Program-made: the position numbers and the translations under genes
Notes under the pieces: model-generated
What the model saw: the letters and a program-made list of their open reading frames with translations, nothing else
Databases searched by the model: none
What the model was told of the DNA's origin: nothing
Shown here: positions 19,388 through 42,816 of the stretch, in pieces
How positions within the stretch are numbered: position 1 is the first letter of the stretch
How the letters are laid out: every line of letters begins with the position of its first letter
From: a bacterium
Lineage (GTDB): Bacteria > SZUA-79 > Acidulodesulfobacterales > Acidulodesulfobacteraceae
Direction of reading: 5' to 3'
Length of the DNA stretch: 64,000 bases
Assembly (NCBI GenBank): GCA_021777135.1
Contig: JAJYDX010000003.1
Coordinates: 1-64,000, forward strand

Positions 19388-20230
19388 ATGCAATCCCCGC
19401 AGTCCCAATTTTTACCTTATTATCCTAAAGTCAGCCTGGAAGCTTACGACGGACCGCTAGACCTGCTTTTAACGCTAATAAAAAAAAATAAAATAAATAT
19501 TTACGATATCCCGATAGTCGAAATAACAAAACAGTATCTTGAAGCTATAGGATTAAATGAAAACTCGGCAGAGACTTCTTACGATGCATTTAATCTAGAT
19601 TTGGGCGGCGACTTTATAGTAATGGCGGCTCAGCTTATATATATCAAATCAGTAATGCTTTTACCTAAATACGACGCTTTGCAAGACTTTGACGGAAGCG
19701 GTAATGACGATATACCGGATCCAAGAACTGAACTGACAGATATGCTTTTAGAATACCGCAAGGTTAAAGAAGTAGCCGACTTCTTAAATAACCGGCCTAT
19801 CTTGGGACGAGATGTATTCGAAATAAAAATGTTTAAAACCGACAAAACGGCTCTTGAGAAAATTTCAAGTAACGCGGGCGTTACTTTTGACGCAAATATT
19901 TTTATTCTTTCCAAGTATTTCTATGGCAAGATAACTGAGGCTGTAAACAGGATAAGCGTTTACGAGGTAGAAAGAGAAAATTTTTCCGTAAAAGAAAAAA
20001 TAATGGAAATAATGGAAATATTTAACAGAGTACACAATATAACTTTCGGCGAAATCGTTAAAAACAGCGCCAGTATAAACGAGTCGTTAACTTATTTTCT
20101 GGCAGTTCTTGAAATGACGAGGCTGGCACTGATAAACTTAAGCCAGTTAAAGCTATTCGGCGAAATATACATATCTCCGACAGCAAACGCCTTAATTGAA
20201 TATCGTTCAAAAATTGCAAGTATGAATTAA
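19388..20230 (+). CDS. scpA: Segregation and condensation protein A (kleisin)
   Basis: ScpA bridges SMC heads and, with ScpB, forms the bacterial condensin. The N-terminal signature YDGPLDLLLTLIKKNKINIYD is clear, and the C-terminal winged-helix part is also present (EIYISPTANALIEY). The length of 280 residues is typical. It follows the M50 gene in the same direction, a common pairing. The usual downstream scpB is absent, and the stop overlaps convergent rluB. Confidence 0.92.
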   Translation: MQSPQSQFLPYYPKVSLEAYDGPLDLLLTLIKKNKINIYDIPIVEITKQYLEAIGLNENSAETSYDAFNLDLGGDFIVMAAQLIYIKSVMLLPKYDALQDFDGSGNDDIPDPRTELTDMLLEYRKVKEVADFLNNRPILGRDVFEIKMFKTDKTALEKISSNAGVTFDANIFILSKYFYGKITEAVNRISVYEVERENFSVKEKIMEIMEIFNRVHNITFGEIVKNSASINESLTYFLAVLEMTRLALINLSQLKLFGEIYISPTANALIEYRSKIASMN

Positions 20231-21084
20231 TTTGTTAGCGCTAATTCCGCGGTTTTACGATTTAATATTCGGTAGTCTCCGGACGGAAGGTCGCCTATAT
20301 AAAGCCCGCCTATCCTAACCCTCCTGAGCATTAATATTTTAAGGTTAAAAAACTCCATCAGCCTTCTTATTTCCCTGTTTTTTCCATGCGACAAGTCAAC
20401 CGAAAGTATAAACTTTGAAGGATTTTTCCTTACTATCCTAACGTCGTCCGGTTTCAAAAGACCTGTTTCTTTAAGCATGACGCCTTTTTTTATCCTGTTG
20501 AAAAGGTCCGGGGTTAATTCTCCCTTGACCTCTACTATATAAGTTTTTATTACGCAAAACTTCGGATGGGTTAAGCTGTAAGCAAAGTCGCCGTCGTTAG
20601 TAAGCAAAAGCATGCCTTCGCTCATAAAATCAAGCCTTCCAGCCGGAAATATGTGCTTGTATTTTAAAGTTTCTTTTCTAATTAATTCCATGACTGTTTT
20701 AAATCCCTCTTCAGATTTTACTGCGGTAATATAACCCTGCGGTTTATTAAGCATAATATAAACTTTAGGCTCATCCTTATATTTAATTTTTTTGCCTTGG
20801 ACGACAACTTCGTCGCCCTGTTTCACGGAAACGGCAAGGTTGGTATTTTTTTTCCCGTTTATAAGAACGCTGCCTTCCTTAATTATTTCATCGGCGTTTC
20901 TTCTGGATACGCCGGTATGCATAGCGATAAACCTGTTTAATCTTATGCCTGCAGCCGGATTAGTGTTAATTTTTACTTTTCCGTCAGACTTAACATTATC
21001 GTTAATTTTAGTCTTAGTATGGCTTTTAGTATTAGTTTTGATAATTTTATCGGCATCAGCCTTAGCTCCTGCTTTGTGTCTCAA
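20227..21084 (-). CDS. rluB: Ribosomal large-subunit pseudouridine synthase (RluB family)
   Basis: A Lys/Thr/Asn-rich N-terminal tail of about 48 residues precedes an S4 RNA-binding domain ([19 protein letters not shown]) and the RsuA/RluB catalytic domain. [17 protein letters not shown] contains the catalytic Asp. It would modify 23S rRNA. It starts at TTG within a TTGA overlap with the thiG stop, with GGAGGGG eight bases upstream, so it is translationally coupled to thiG and falls in the TPP-controlled operon. The tail is unlike the usual family N-terminus. Confidence 0.88.
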
Positions 21085-21944
21085 AATACTATCCCCTCCA
21101 TTTGCGTGGAAGCCTGAGCATAAAGCTTCATAGGTATGCGTCCGGATAAATATGAAAGGCGGCCGGCCTCAACGGCATTTTTCATTGCAGACGCCATGCC
21201 TACCGGATTGCCGGCTCCGGCAATTGCCGTGTTTATAAGTATGCCGTCAACGCCTAGTTCCATTGTTTTACATGCGTCGGATGCCGTTCCAACGCCTGCA
21301 TCAACTATTACAGGAACGGAAACGGTTTCTTTAATTATTTTAATATTATAAGGATTCCTTATGCCGAGACCTGAGCCGATAGGCGACGCAAGCGGCATTA
21401 CCACGGGGCATCCTATATCTTCAAGTTTTTTTGCAAGAACCGGATCATCCATCATATACGGCATAACGGTAAAGCCCTCTTTGACTAAAATTTTGGCAGC
21501 TTTAAGCAGTTCTTCGTTATCCGGATAAAGCGTTTTTTGGTCGCCTATTACTTCTAACTTTACCAGATCGGTTTTAAAAACTTCGAGTTCCCTCGCAAGC
21601 CTAAGCGTGTTAACCGCGTCTTCAGCAGTATAACATCCGGCGGTATTTGGAAGAAGTATATATTTGTCCAGGTCAATATAAGACAGTAAATTTTCTTTCG
21701 AATTAAAGTCAATTCTTCTGACTGCAACGGTGATTATTTCCGAACCGGAAGCGGAAGCGGCATCTTTCATGGTTTCAAAATCCGGATACTTACCGGTTCC
21801 TATAAGAAGCCTGGATTTAAATATATATTTACCTATTTTTAATACATCTCCGGAAACTTCTTTATCGGTATTATTTTTTAAGCCGTTATTAATTTTGCTG
21901 TTATTGTTATCTTTAATTTTAATTTTTTCTTTCCTTTCTTCCAT
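21081..21944 (-). CDS. thiG: Thiazole synthase
   Basis: ThiG forms the thiamine thiazole from deoxyxylulose 5-phosphate, dehydroglycine and the ThiS thiocarboxylate. [12 protein letters not shown], the Schiff-base lysine region LVKLEVIGD, and [15 protein letters not shown]-like phosphate loops are present. A low-complexity extension of about 35 residues precedes the core. It seems real, because GAGGT precedes the ATG and no internal Met is available. It lies 43 bases after thiS. Confidence 0.95.
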
Positions 21945-21987: not shown

Positions 21988-22188
21988 TTATCCGCCTGGA
22001 GCTATGGTAACCAGGTCTATTTTATCGTTTTCGTTAAGAACAAACGCAGGATATGAACTTTTTGGGACTATCGCCTTATTTACGGCGACCGCGGTACTTT
22101 TCAAATCCAATTCAAGCTCGTCTATCAGTCTTTGGACGGTAATATCTTGACCGGTAAAATATTCTTTTCCGTTTAGTTCTAATTTCAT
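21988..22188 (-). CDS. thiS: Sulfur carrier protein ThiS
   Basis: This 66-residue ubiquitin-fold protein ends in Gly-Gly (LVTIAPGG), which is adenylated and thiocarboxylated to donate sulfur to ThiG. It lies between the CofH-like gene (31 bases) and thiG, all on one transcript behind the TPP riboswitch. Only the usual thiH is missing from the set. Confidence 0.95.
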   Translation of the reverse strand: MKLELNGKEYFTGQDITVQRLIDELELDLKSTAVAVNKAIVPKSSYPAFVLNENDKIDLVTIAPGG

Positions 22189-22219: not shown

Positions 22220-23365
22220 TTATACGTTAAACCCTTTATTTATCTCCGCATTTACATAATTATAAAGAGTATCCCTTCTTACCGGAATTTTACCGGCACG
22301 TTTTAATAACTTAATTATTTCTTTTTCGGATAAATATTCGCCAAAATTGCCGCCTGCGCTCTTTGTAATATTTTCCTCCATAAGCGTTCCGCCAAAATCG
22401 TTAACACCGTAATCCAACGATTTTAATGCTGATTGGACGCCTATTTTAGGCCAACTTGTCTGAATATTTTTAAAATTATCCAGATACAACCTCAAAATAG
22501 CATAAAATTTAAGCGCCTTATCTACATCTCTTATTACGGCCTCGTCCACCCTGCTTCTAAGAGAAGTTTTATAAGATATAAAAGGTAATGCTATAAATTC
22601 TGTAAACCCTGCTGTTTCGTCCTGAATACTCCTTATAACGTTAAGATGATATACTAAATCTTCAGCGGACTCCAAATGGCCGAAAAGAACCGTGGCCGAT
22701 GTTTTAACTCCAATATTATGGGCAGTTTTTATAATCTCTACCCAAGTTTCGCTTTCTATTTTTTTCGGACAGATTTTTTTTCTCGTTTCTTTTGCTAAAA
22801 TTTCAGCAGCCGTTCCTGGCATGGAATTTAATCCGCAGTCCATTAGTTTTTCTATAATCCCCGCGTAAGATTTACCCGTCGCGTTAGAGAGTTCATAAAT
22901 TTCCTGCGGCGAAAATGCGTGTATATGCAGTTCTGGAAAATTACTCCTTACCGTTTTAACCAGATTAAAGTAATAATCAGGATTTAATTTTAATTCAGGA
23001 TTTATGCCTCCTGTCACGCATATTTCGTCAATTCCAATAAGGCTTATTCCTTCCGAAATTTTTTCCAATACCCTGTCGTAATCTAGCAAAAAAGCGTCTT
23101 TAGAGTTTTTGGTTCTTTTATATCCGCAAAACCTGCAGTTTAAACCGCATATATTAGTAAAATTAATATTTCTATTTACTACGTAGGAAACATTTTTAGA
23201 ATTAACCGTCTGGTTTAATATATCTGCCGCTTCCTTTATTTTACTTATTTCGCTTATTTCCCGTTCTTTAAGCAAAAAAAGAAGGTCTTCGTCTTCCAGT
23301 CTGATGCCGGACAAAGATTTTTGTAAAATAGCATCCAGGTTTAGTTTACAGGATATATCCGTCAT
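22220..23365 (-). CDS. CofH-like radical SAM enzyme heading the thiS-thiG operon
   Basis: The protein belongs to the CofH/MqnC/MqnE group. The cluster is CGLNCRFCGY, preceded by VNRNINFTNI. CofH-type features are GGINPEL, HIHAFSPQEI, SMPGTAAEIL, GGTLMEENITKSAG and the C-terminal GKIPVRRDTLY. It lacks MqnC features (GGGAEIL, WVTQGAKMGQ), which are seen in the protein at 41761-42816. CofH cleaves tyrosine at C-alpha/C-beta and adds the hydroxybenzyl group to a ribityl-uracil in F420 synthesis. ThiH makes the same cleavage to supply dehydroglycine for ThiG. Its place behind a TPP riboswitch and before thiS suggests a thiamine role (inference). The ribosome site (AGAGG) is rather far from the ATG. 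Confidence 0.75.
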   Translation of the reverse strand: MTDISCKLNLDAILQKSLSGIRLEDEDLLFLLKEREISEISKIKEAADILNQTVNSKNVSYVVNRNINFTNICGLNCRFCGYKRTKNSKDAFLLDYDRVLEKISEGISLIGIDEICVTGGINPELKLNPDYYFNLVKTVRSNFPELHIHAFSPQEIYELSNATGKSYAGIIEKLMDCGLNSMPGTAAEILAKETRKKICPKKIESETWVEIIKTAHNIGVKTSATVLFGHLESAEDLVYHLNVIRSIQDETAGFTEFIALPFISYKTSLRSRVDEAVIRDVDKALKFYAILRLYLDNFKNIQTSWPKIGVQSALKSLDYGVNDFGGTLMEENITKSAGGNFGEYLSEKEIIKLLKRAGKIPVRRDTLYNYVNAEINKGFNV

Positions 23366-23492
23366 TTTATCGGCTATCGACCTCTTTATAATATGTGTAA
23401 ATTAACCTGAATGCGGCTGCCGGATACAAAATGAGGATAAGATGAGGATGTTTATAAATTTTGATAAATTATAATGCTTTATAATTATAGCA

Positions 23493-23585
23493 CATCCCTA
23501 CGACGGCATTATCCGTATCAGGTTCAAAGGGTTGCAGGTTTTAACAGCCCTGCTCTCAGCCGTTGCGTTTTATACGGCACCCCTA
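23493..23585 (-). promoter_or_regulatory. TPP riboswitch (THI element)
   Basis: On the minus strand the conserved blocks occur in order: GGGGTGCC, GGCTGAGAG, ACCCTTTGAACCTGAT, GGATAATGCC and CGTAGGGA. These are the P2/J3-2 and P4/P5 consensus parts of the thiamine-pyrophosphate aptamer. The aptamer ends about 130 bases before the CofH-like gene. The operon should be repressed when TPP is plentiful. The expression platform mechanism is not clear from the sequence. Confidence 0.95.
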
Positions 23586-23710
23586 TTTTTTATCTTTATA
23601 ATTATAATTATATCACTTATTACTTCTGAGTTCCAATTATATTATATATTATATTATCAGAATTACCGTTGGTATACATTTTATTGCATATGACAAGCCT
23701 GATTTTTTGG
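23586..23710. other. AT-rich spacer between the T4SS operon end and the riboswitch
   Basis: The whole gene-free stretch from 23366 to 23710 is 345 bases. It holds the TPP aptamer, an AT-rich leader with two GAGGAT copies near 23433-23448 (GAGGATAAGATGAGGATG), and this 125-base spacer of TATA-type sequence. I see no clear terminator after the last T4SS gene and no gene here. A promoter for the riboswitch transcript must lie in it, but several weak TATAAT-like options exist. Confidence 0.5.
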
Positions 23711-41760: not shown

Positions 41761-42816
41761 TTAATAAAATTTTATTATATCATAATTATTAATTCTTTGC
41801 GCCGGAACAAAACCCGCGTCTTTAATAAGTTTTACCATAAGCTTCTCGTCGACGGTGCTGTTTGAAGTGCCTGCCGCCTTAACGACGTTTTCTTCCAGCA
41901 TCGTTGAACCCATATCGTTAGCGCCAAAACTTAACGCAACCTGCCCCATTTTTGCCCCCTGAGTTACCCACGAGGCCTGAATATTATCGAAATTGTCTAA
42001 AACTATCCTTGAAATTGCAAGAACCTTAAGATAATAATGACCATAAACGCCTCTAGGATTTAACGCGGTATTTTTGCTCTGGAAACTCCAGGGGATAAAC
42101 GCCTTGAAACCGCCGGTTTCGTCCTGCAAATCGCGAAGTTTAAAAAGATGCTCCATAATGTCTTCATCGGTTTCTACCGTTCCGAACATCATCGTCGCCG
42201 ACGAATTTAGACCGGCAAGGTGTACTTCTTTCATAACTTCGAGCCACTGGCGGCTGTTTATTTTATTAGGGCTGATTTTATTCCTAACCCTGTCGGTCAG
42301 TATTTCCGCGCCACCGCCTGGGACTGAACCTAGTCCGGCGTCTTTCAAAAGATTAACGGTTTCTTTTATAGTTATATCATTCAAATCTGAGATAAAAGTA
42401 ATTTCTGGCGGAGAAAAAGCGTGTATATGAATTTTGAATTTTTCCTTTATATCCCTTAAAAGCTCTATATAATAATTTATCTCGATATCCTTGTTTAATC
42501 CGCCTTGAAGAAGAATCTGGGTTCCGTTTAGTTCTTTAGTTTCCTTAATTTTTTCAAAAATTTGCTCTTTTGAAAGAATATAAGCTTCTTTGTCCGAAAC
42601 GCCGTACTTTTTATAAAAAGCGCAGAACCTGCATTCTGAGGCGCATATATTAGTATAATTAATATTTCTGTCTATAATAAAAGTTACGATATTATCAGGA
42701 TGTTTGTTTTTTCTTATTTCACCGGCCATTTTCCCTAGGTCGAGAAGGCTTTTGCTTTTAAATAGTTTCAGTGCTTCTTCTTTATTAATTCTTTTTTGAC
42801 GCATATTTTTATTCAT
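41761..42816 (-). CDS. mqnC: Cyclic dehypoxanthine futalosine synthase
   Basis: MqnC is the radical SAM cyclase of the futalosine menaquinone pathway. The cluster is CASECRFCAFY. QGGLNKDIEINYY, SVPGGGAEIL, LQDETGGFKAFIPWSFQ and SWVTQGAKMGQ are family hallmarks. The protein is clearly distinct from the CofH-like protein at 22220-23365. The gene lies 15 bases after fliI, an unusual neighbour, and no other mqn gene is seen. Confidence 0.92.
   Translation of the reverse strand: MNKNMRQKRINKEEALKLFKSKSLLDLGKMAGEIRKNKHPDNIVTFIIDRNINYTNICASECRFCAFYKKYGVSDKEAYILSKEQIFEKIKETKELNGTQILLQGGLNKDIEINYYIELLRDIKEKFKIHIHAFSPPEITFISDLNDITIKETVNLLKDAGLGSVPGGGAEILTDRVRNKISPNKINSRQWLEVMKEVHLAGLNSSATMMFGTVETDEDIMEHLFKLRDLQDETGGFKAFIPWSFQSKNTALNPRGVYGHYYLKVLAISRIVLDNFDNIQASWVTQGAKMGQVALSFGANDMGSTMLEENVVKAAGTSNSTVDEKLMVKLIKDAGFVPAQRINNYDIIKFY

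Follow-up and report, generated by a model that had tools for sequence, protein, structure and literature searches.

Known sources of dehydroglycine and the CofH family

CofH is the 5-amino-6-(D-ribitylamino)uracil--L-tyrosine 4-hydroxyphenyl transferase of F420/FO synthesis, and the other fragment of its reaction is dehydroglycine (2-iminoacetate). In this reaction, a hydrogen is taken from the tyrosine amine, which leads to fragmentation and to a p-hydroxybenzyl radical that is added to ribityldiaminouracil (PMC8498797). The tyrosine lyase ThiH (2-iminoacetate synthase) breaks the same tyrosine bond, releasing dehydroglycine and p-cresol (PMC9046217). Because both enzymes cleave the same bond, a CofH-type enzyme encoded beside the thiazole synthase ThiG would supply the substrate that ThiG needs with little or no new chemistry. 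The same product is formed by glycine oxidase, ThiO, an unrelated oxygen-dependent flavoenzyme. MqnC and MqnE, the sister members of the CofH/MqnC/MqnE family, belong to the futalosine menaquinone pathway. In one large survey, the thiamine genes considered were limited to ThiC, ThiE, ThiG, and ThiL (PMC11346370), and no paper naming CofH together with ThiG or ThiH was found in a literature search that had most subscription papers and all preprints outside its reach.

We analyzed a thiamine locus in a 64,000-nucleotide stretch of DNA (the window) from a genome of the Ca. Acidulodesulfobacterales (SZUA-79), a group described earlier (PMC6776010). The genome comprises 2.12 Mb in 92 contigs, with an estimated completeness of 100% and contamination of 2.1%.

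A CofH-like gene in a riboswitch-led thi operon

The sequence-only reading of this DNA had placed a clear TPP aptamer at the head of an operon with the order CofH-like gene, thiS, thiG, rluB. The aptamer scores well above its gathering threshold, and all four genes were located behind it on the same strand by model or domain matches (Table 1), in agreement with that description. The interval that it had singled out, 22220-23585, includes the entire CofH-like gene and an almost complete aptamer. A genome-wide search found this riboswitch as a single copy. In the stretch between the aptamer and the first gene, no terminator-like site was found on the gene strand, and the folded leader showed no significant additional structure (z -1.0). 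The rluB-type gene overlaps the thiG stop. Among relatives it lies 3' of thiG where the CofH-like gene comes first and is not found there in the order thiS-thiG-cofH; it is probably a mere passenger of the operon.

Table 1. Features of the thi operon, with positions in the window
Feature	Position	Strand	Evidence
TPP riboswitch aptamer (THI element), operon leader	23477-23594	minus	Rfam RF00059, 73.8 bits, gathering score 54.3, E 1.2e-12
CofH-family radical SAM gene, thi-linked clade, 381 aa	22220-23365	minus	TIGR03551, 389 bits
thiS, sulfur carrier, C-terminal Gly-Gly (ends APGG)	21988-22188	minus	TIGR01683, 57 bits, cut-off 37
thiG, thiazole synthase	21081-21944	minus	PF05690, 366.7 bits, E 7e-110
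S4-domain pseudouridine synthase, rluB-type	20227-21084	minus	PF00849 (PseudoU_synth_2) + PF01479 (S4)

The encoded protein is a CofH-family radical SAM protein

The CofH-like protein exceeds the cut-off of 374 bits for the CofH model TIGR03551 and falls just below that of NF005609 (419 bits, cut-off 426). It stays under the cut-offs of the MqnC model TIGR03699 (361 vs 428 bits) and the MqnE model TIGR03700 (331 vs 435 bits), and with the ThiH model TIGR02351 it reaches 28 bits against a cut-off of 380, which bears out the earlier statement that ThiH features are lacking. Its Pfam domains are Radical_SAM and CofH_C; the C-terminal BATS domain of ThiH (PF06968) was not detected by Pfam, and CofH_C stands in its place. 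The cluster motif CxxxCxxC is formed by C73, C77, and C80, and the three CofH motifs named previously, PGTAAEIL, GGTLMEEN, and RDTLY, are all present. In an AlphaFold2 model (pLDDT 88.3, pTM 0.89), the best PDB match is MqnE at a TM score of 0.85, followed by HydE, PylB, HydG, and ThiH. Family, fold, and cluster motif are shared with CofH; with ThiH the protein distantly shares the radical SAM fold.

Residues were compared for the clade of thi-linked proteins as a whole. Of the positions fixed in CofH, the clade keeps 47 of the 50 found family-wide and 9 of the 11 CofH-specific ones (C116, T185, A186, H230, T255, E256, L260, K307, and M329), and in the same comparison it has none of the nine MqnC-specific and none of the 21 MqnE-specific residues. 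This pattern points to substrate handling of the CofH type, with tyrosine as the predicted substrate. Among the positions fixed in CofH, those altered throughout the clade include F82Y, A106G, Q118T, T223S, V306P, and R51N, and the CofH-fixed T113 is mostly D or N. Retention of the CofH-specific residues would fit a tyrosine lyase and a full CofH transferase alike and cannot separate the two.

Thiamine and related cofactor genes in the genome

The genome encodes thiC, thiE, thiS, and thiG, with thiE and thiC together on another contig (C54). Searches of this genome gave no match above the cut-off for the ThiH and CofG models and no match at E 1e-5 for the ThiO model. A search among DAO-family oxidases gave no source of dehydroglycine; HydG, sought through its BATS domain, was likewise not found, the sole protein with this domain being BioB.

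Three genes of the CofH family are present, namely the thi-linked one, mqnC, and mqnE. MqnC (cyclic dehypoxanthinyl futalosine synthase) is encoded in the window at 41761-42816 on the minus strand (TIGR03699, 490.6 bits, cut-off 428), and MqnE on contig C46; together they point to the futalosine pathway of menaquinone synthesis. A menaquinone role for the thi-linked protein was considered and rejected, since the genome has separate orthologs of both enzymes.

Nearly every genome of the phylum has two genes of the ThiC family. Here they lie at G000:C46:4895-6133 (L223:2863-4188) and G000:C54:529656-530924 (L224:3642-4940). One follows thiE, and the other adjoins apparent cobT and cobB-type cobalamin genes, which were named by eye. 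With the BzaB model (cut-off 700), the cobalamin-side gene reaches 508 bits, and it may encode a 5-hydroxybenzimidazole synthase (BzaF-type) for the lower ligand of B12.

One could suppose that the CofH-like enzyme acts on some other substrate of thiamine metabolism, for instance in pyrimidine synthesis or salvage, and that dehydroglycine forms non-enzymatically from glyoxylate and ammonia. Chemically, the imine of glyoxylate is identical to dehydroglycine, and tyrosine as the substrate is a prediction from the residues. However, ThiC and ThiE cover the pyrimidine branch, seven genomes have the gene behind thiS-thiG, where thiH classically stands (see below), and the known branch of the family with these CofH-type residues acts on tyrosine. 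We regard such a role as improbable.

Co-occurrence with ThiG and absence of ThiH, ThiO, and CofG

All 30 genomes in the data set for this phylum of uncultured bacteria, which represent six genera of one family-level lineage, were searched with a model built from the thi-linked proteins. It matched in 27 of the 30 genomes at 612-768 bits, and the next family members there, MqnE and MqnC, reached at most about 310 bits. CofH proteins of the F420 type score at most 398 bits with this model, as does any other CofH, a gap that sets the thi-linked proteins apart. ThiG occurs in exactly the same 27 genomes, and ThiC in 29 of the 30. The three genomes without both the CofH-like gene and thiG are 85-86% complete; they probably reflect one missing locus and are not independent evidence. 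Two genomes carry a second copy of ThiG close to the end of a contig (G018:C34:316-1050 and G019:C11:330-1064), with no CofH-like gene matched there; it could be the same locus duplicated through strain variation within the bin.

Neither ThiH nor ThiO was found above the cut-off in any of the 30 genomes, and both models match the control genomes as expected. The three strongest ThiO-model matches (68-73 bits) are in G026, G003, and G007. The best of them (G026, 72.7 bits) was rejected as a ThiO, being an L-2-hydroxyglutarate oxidase according to NCBIfam. CofG is also absent above the cut-off from all 30 genomes, the best score being 63 bits vs 213 and coming from other members of the CofH family; here too the controls match. 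The 19 genomes with a completeness of at least 90% all agree on this pattern. There is some residual chance that the absence stems from incomplete genomes or from a ThiH or ThiO that has diverged strongly. The sequence-only reading had proposed a search of the genome for thiH, thiO, and cofG; all three are absent from this genome and from 30 of 30 in the phylum.

These absences bear on the possibility that the protein is a true CofH, making the adduct of tyrosine and 5-amino-6-ribitylaminouracil for a deazaflavin-type product that is regulated by TPP. In favor of this, it passes TIGR03551 and keeps 9 of the 11 CofH-specific positions. But FO could not be completed by the known route in a phylum lacking CofG, the gene is tied to thiS-thiG in a TPP-controlled operon instead of to F420 genes, and ThiG would be left without a source of dehydroglycine. 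We therefore give a true CofH little credence, and the thiamine-controlled deazaflavin step that had been offered as an alternative appears unlikely given the absence of CofG.

Conservation of gene order and riboswitch

In 26 of the 27 genomes, the CofH-like gene and thiG are on the same strand, and their matched stretches are 67-453 bp apart. The order is cofH-thiS-thiG in 19 genomes and thiS-thiG-cofH in seven. The latter order is led by a TPP riboswitch and has the CofH-like gene in third place, where thiH usually stands, so that in slot as well as in riboswitch and neighboring genes the gene resembles thiH. Since two gene orders occur, the adjacency has outlived rearrangement, and its conservation argues for a functional tie and against chance. 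A TPP riboswitch precedes the operon in nearly all relatives whose upstream sequence is long enough, and in most it exceeds the gathering score; those of G008, G009, G011, and G014 score 50.8-54.0 bits, just under the 54.3 cut-off, with E values of about 4e-7 or better.

The remaining genome, G028, has kept the CofH-like gene 36 kb from thiG. The TPP riboswitch leads the thiG side, and none was detected before the CofH-like gene. At L160:2430-4421, the unlinked gene follows that of an FAD-dependent protein with PF21688 (FAD-depend_C). As a further observation, the lineage with the order thiS-thiG-cofH has SAM riboswitches and cobalamin riboswitches no more than a few kb away from its thi locus (L034:1969-2066 and L035:1769-1866; L173:258-455 and L179:152-350).

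Phylogeny of the thi-linked proteins

Among the matches listed in a scan of 85k species, six close relatives with 62-78% identity are all thi-linked, and every other match has at most 48% identity. Outside the phylum, none of the 80 best relatives in the 85k genomes was found near ThiS or ThiG. In a maximum-likelihood tree, the thi-linked proteins form one clade (support 99/85) on a long stem of 0.86. The best tree places this clade outside the F420-type CofH clade, including the copies encoded beside cofG, cofC, cofD, and cofE, and also outside the cyanobacterial CofH clade. A tree had been suggested previously as a way to learn whether thi-linked members stand apart. The separate clade was recovered, and its position outside F420-type CofH holds in the best tree. 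AU tests reject none of the alternatives compared (attachment to either CofH set, or to all CofH; p-AU 0.14-0.36), so that its exact placement and the root are tentative.

The 27 cases are one family-level lineage and not independent origins. This restriction to a single lineage, with no gene beside ThiG or ThiS among the relatives screened outside the phylum, would be expected if a leftover CofH gene had merely chanced into the thi operon and hitchhiked there. The gene has nevertheless stayed intact in 27 genomes of six genera, through a change in order and one separation, and no CofG is left to account for its retention. Such hitchhiking has hardly any chance of being the explanation.

Proposed function

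Our preferred reading builds on what was observed: the operon and its riboswitch, the joint occurrence with ThiG, the lack of ThiH, ThiO, and CofG, and the CofH-type residues. On this genomic evidence, the CofH-like gene likely encodes a dedicated enzyme of the thiazole pathway, one that the CofH branch of its family has provided as a non-orthologous replacement of ThiH. The protein would work like ThiH without being a member of the ThiH family, and an F420-type role as a CofH is only putative without CofG. The earlier suggestion that a CofH relative may supply dehydroglycine here is supported by the absence of ThiH, ThiO, and CofG and by the separate clade, the activity itself being predicted.

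In the proposed route, the CofH-type enzyme would cleave tyrosine to dehydroglycine, the same product that ThiO would provide, and would hand it over to ThiG, which would build the thiazole from it, deoxyxylulose phosphate, and the thiocarboxylate of ThiS. The leftover 4-hydroxybenzyl radical might be reduced and released as p-cresol, as with ThiH, or added to an acceptor, as with CofH; this acceptor could be 5-amino-6-ribitylaminouracil or another compound. TPP would shut the operon off through the riboswitch.

Within this reading, the enzyme could still carry out the CofH transferase reaction, with ribitylaminouracil or some other acceptor, so that the dehydroglycine by-product is what is useful and the adduct serves as a sink. 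The CofH-specific residues are largely kept, and recruitment of an ancestral CofH would call for no new chemistry, as the mechanism implies that the reaction already leaves 2-iminoacetate (PMC8498797). On the other side, one riboflavin precursor would be spent per thiazole, and the clade-wide changes Q118T, V306P, F82Y, and R51N, along with the D or N that mostly replaces T113, may reflect an altered acceptor site. We hold this variant to be possible, though somewhat doubtful.

For the broader proposal, that a CofH-clade enzyme has replaced ThiH in the entire phylum and represents a third, undescribed class of dehydroglycine source, possibly one that passes the hydroxybenzyl group to an acceptor other than the ribityl-uracil, we see a good probability. 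In thiamine pathway annotation, dehydroglycine is assigned to ThiH and ThiO; such genomes therefore look incomplete, and the gene is labeled as an F420 enzyme. If the proposal is true, this would be a clear-cut example of non-orthologous gene displacement in which the by-product of an enzyme became its product. It would also caution that F420 should not be deduced from CofH by itself, and would offer a natural test of how enzymes of the CofH family choose the fate of the 4-hydroxybenzyl radical.
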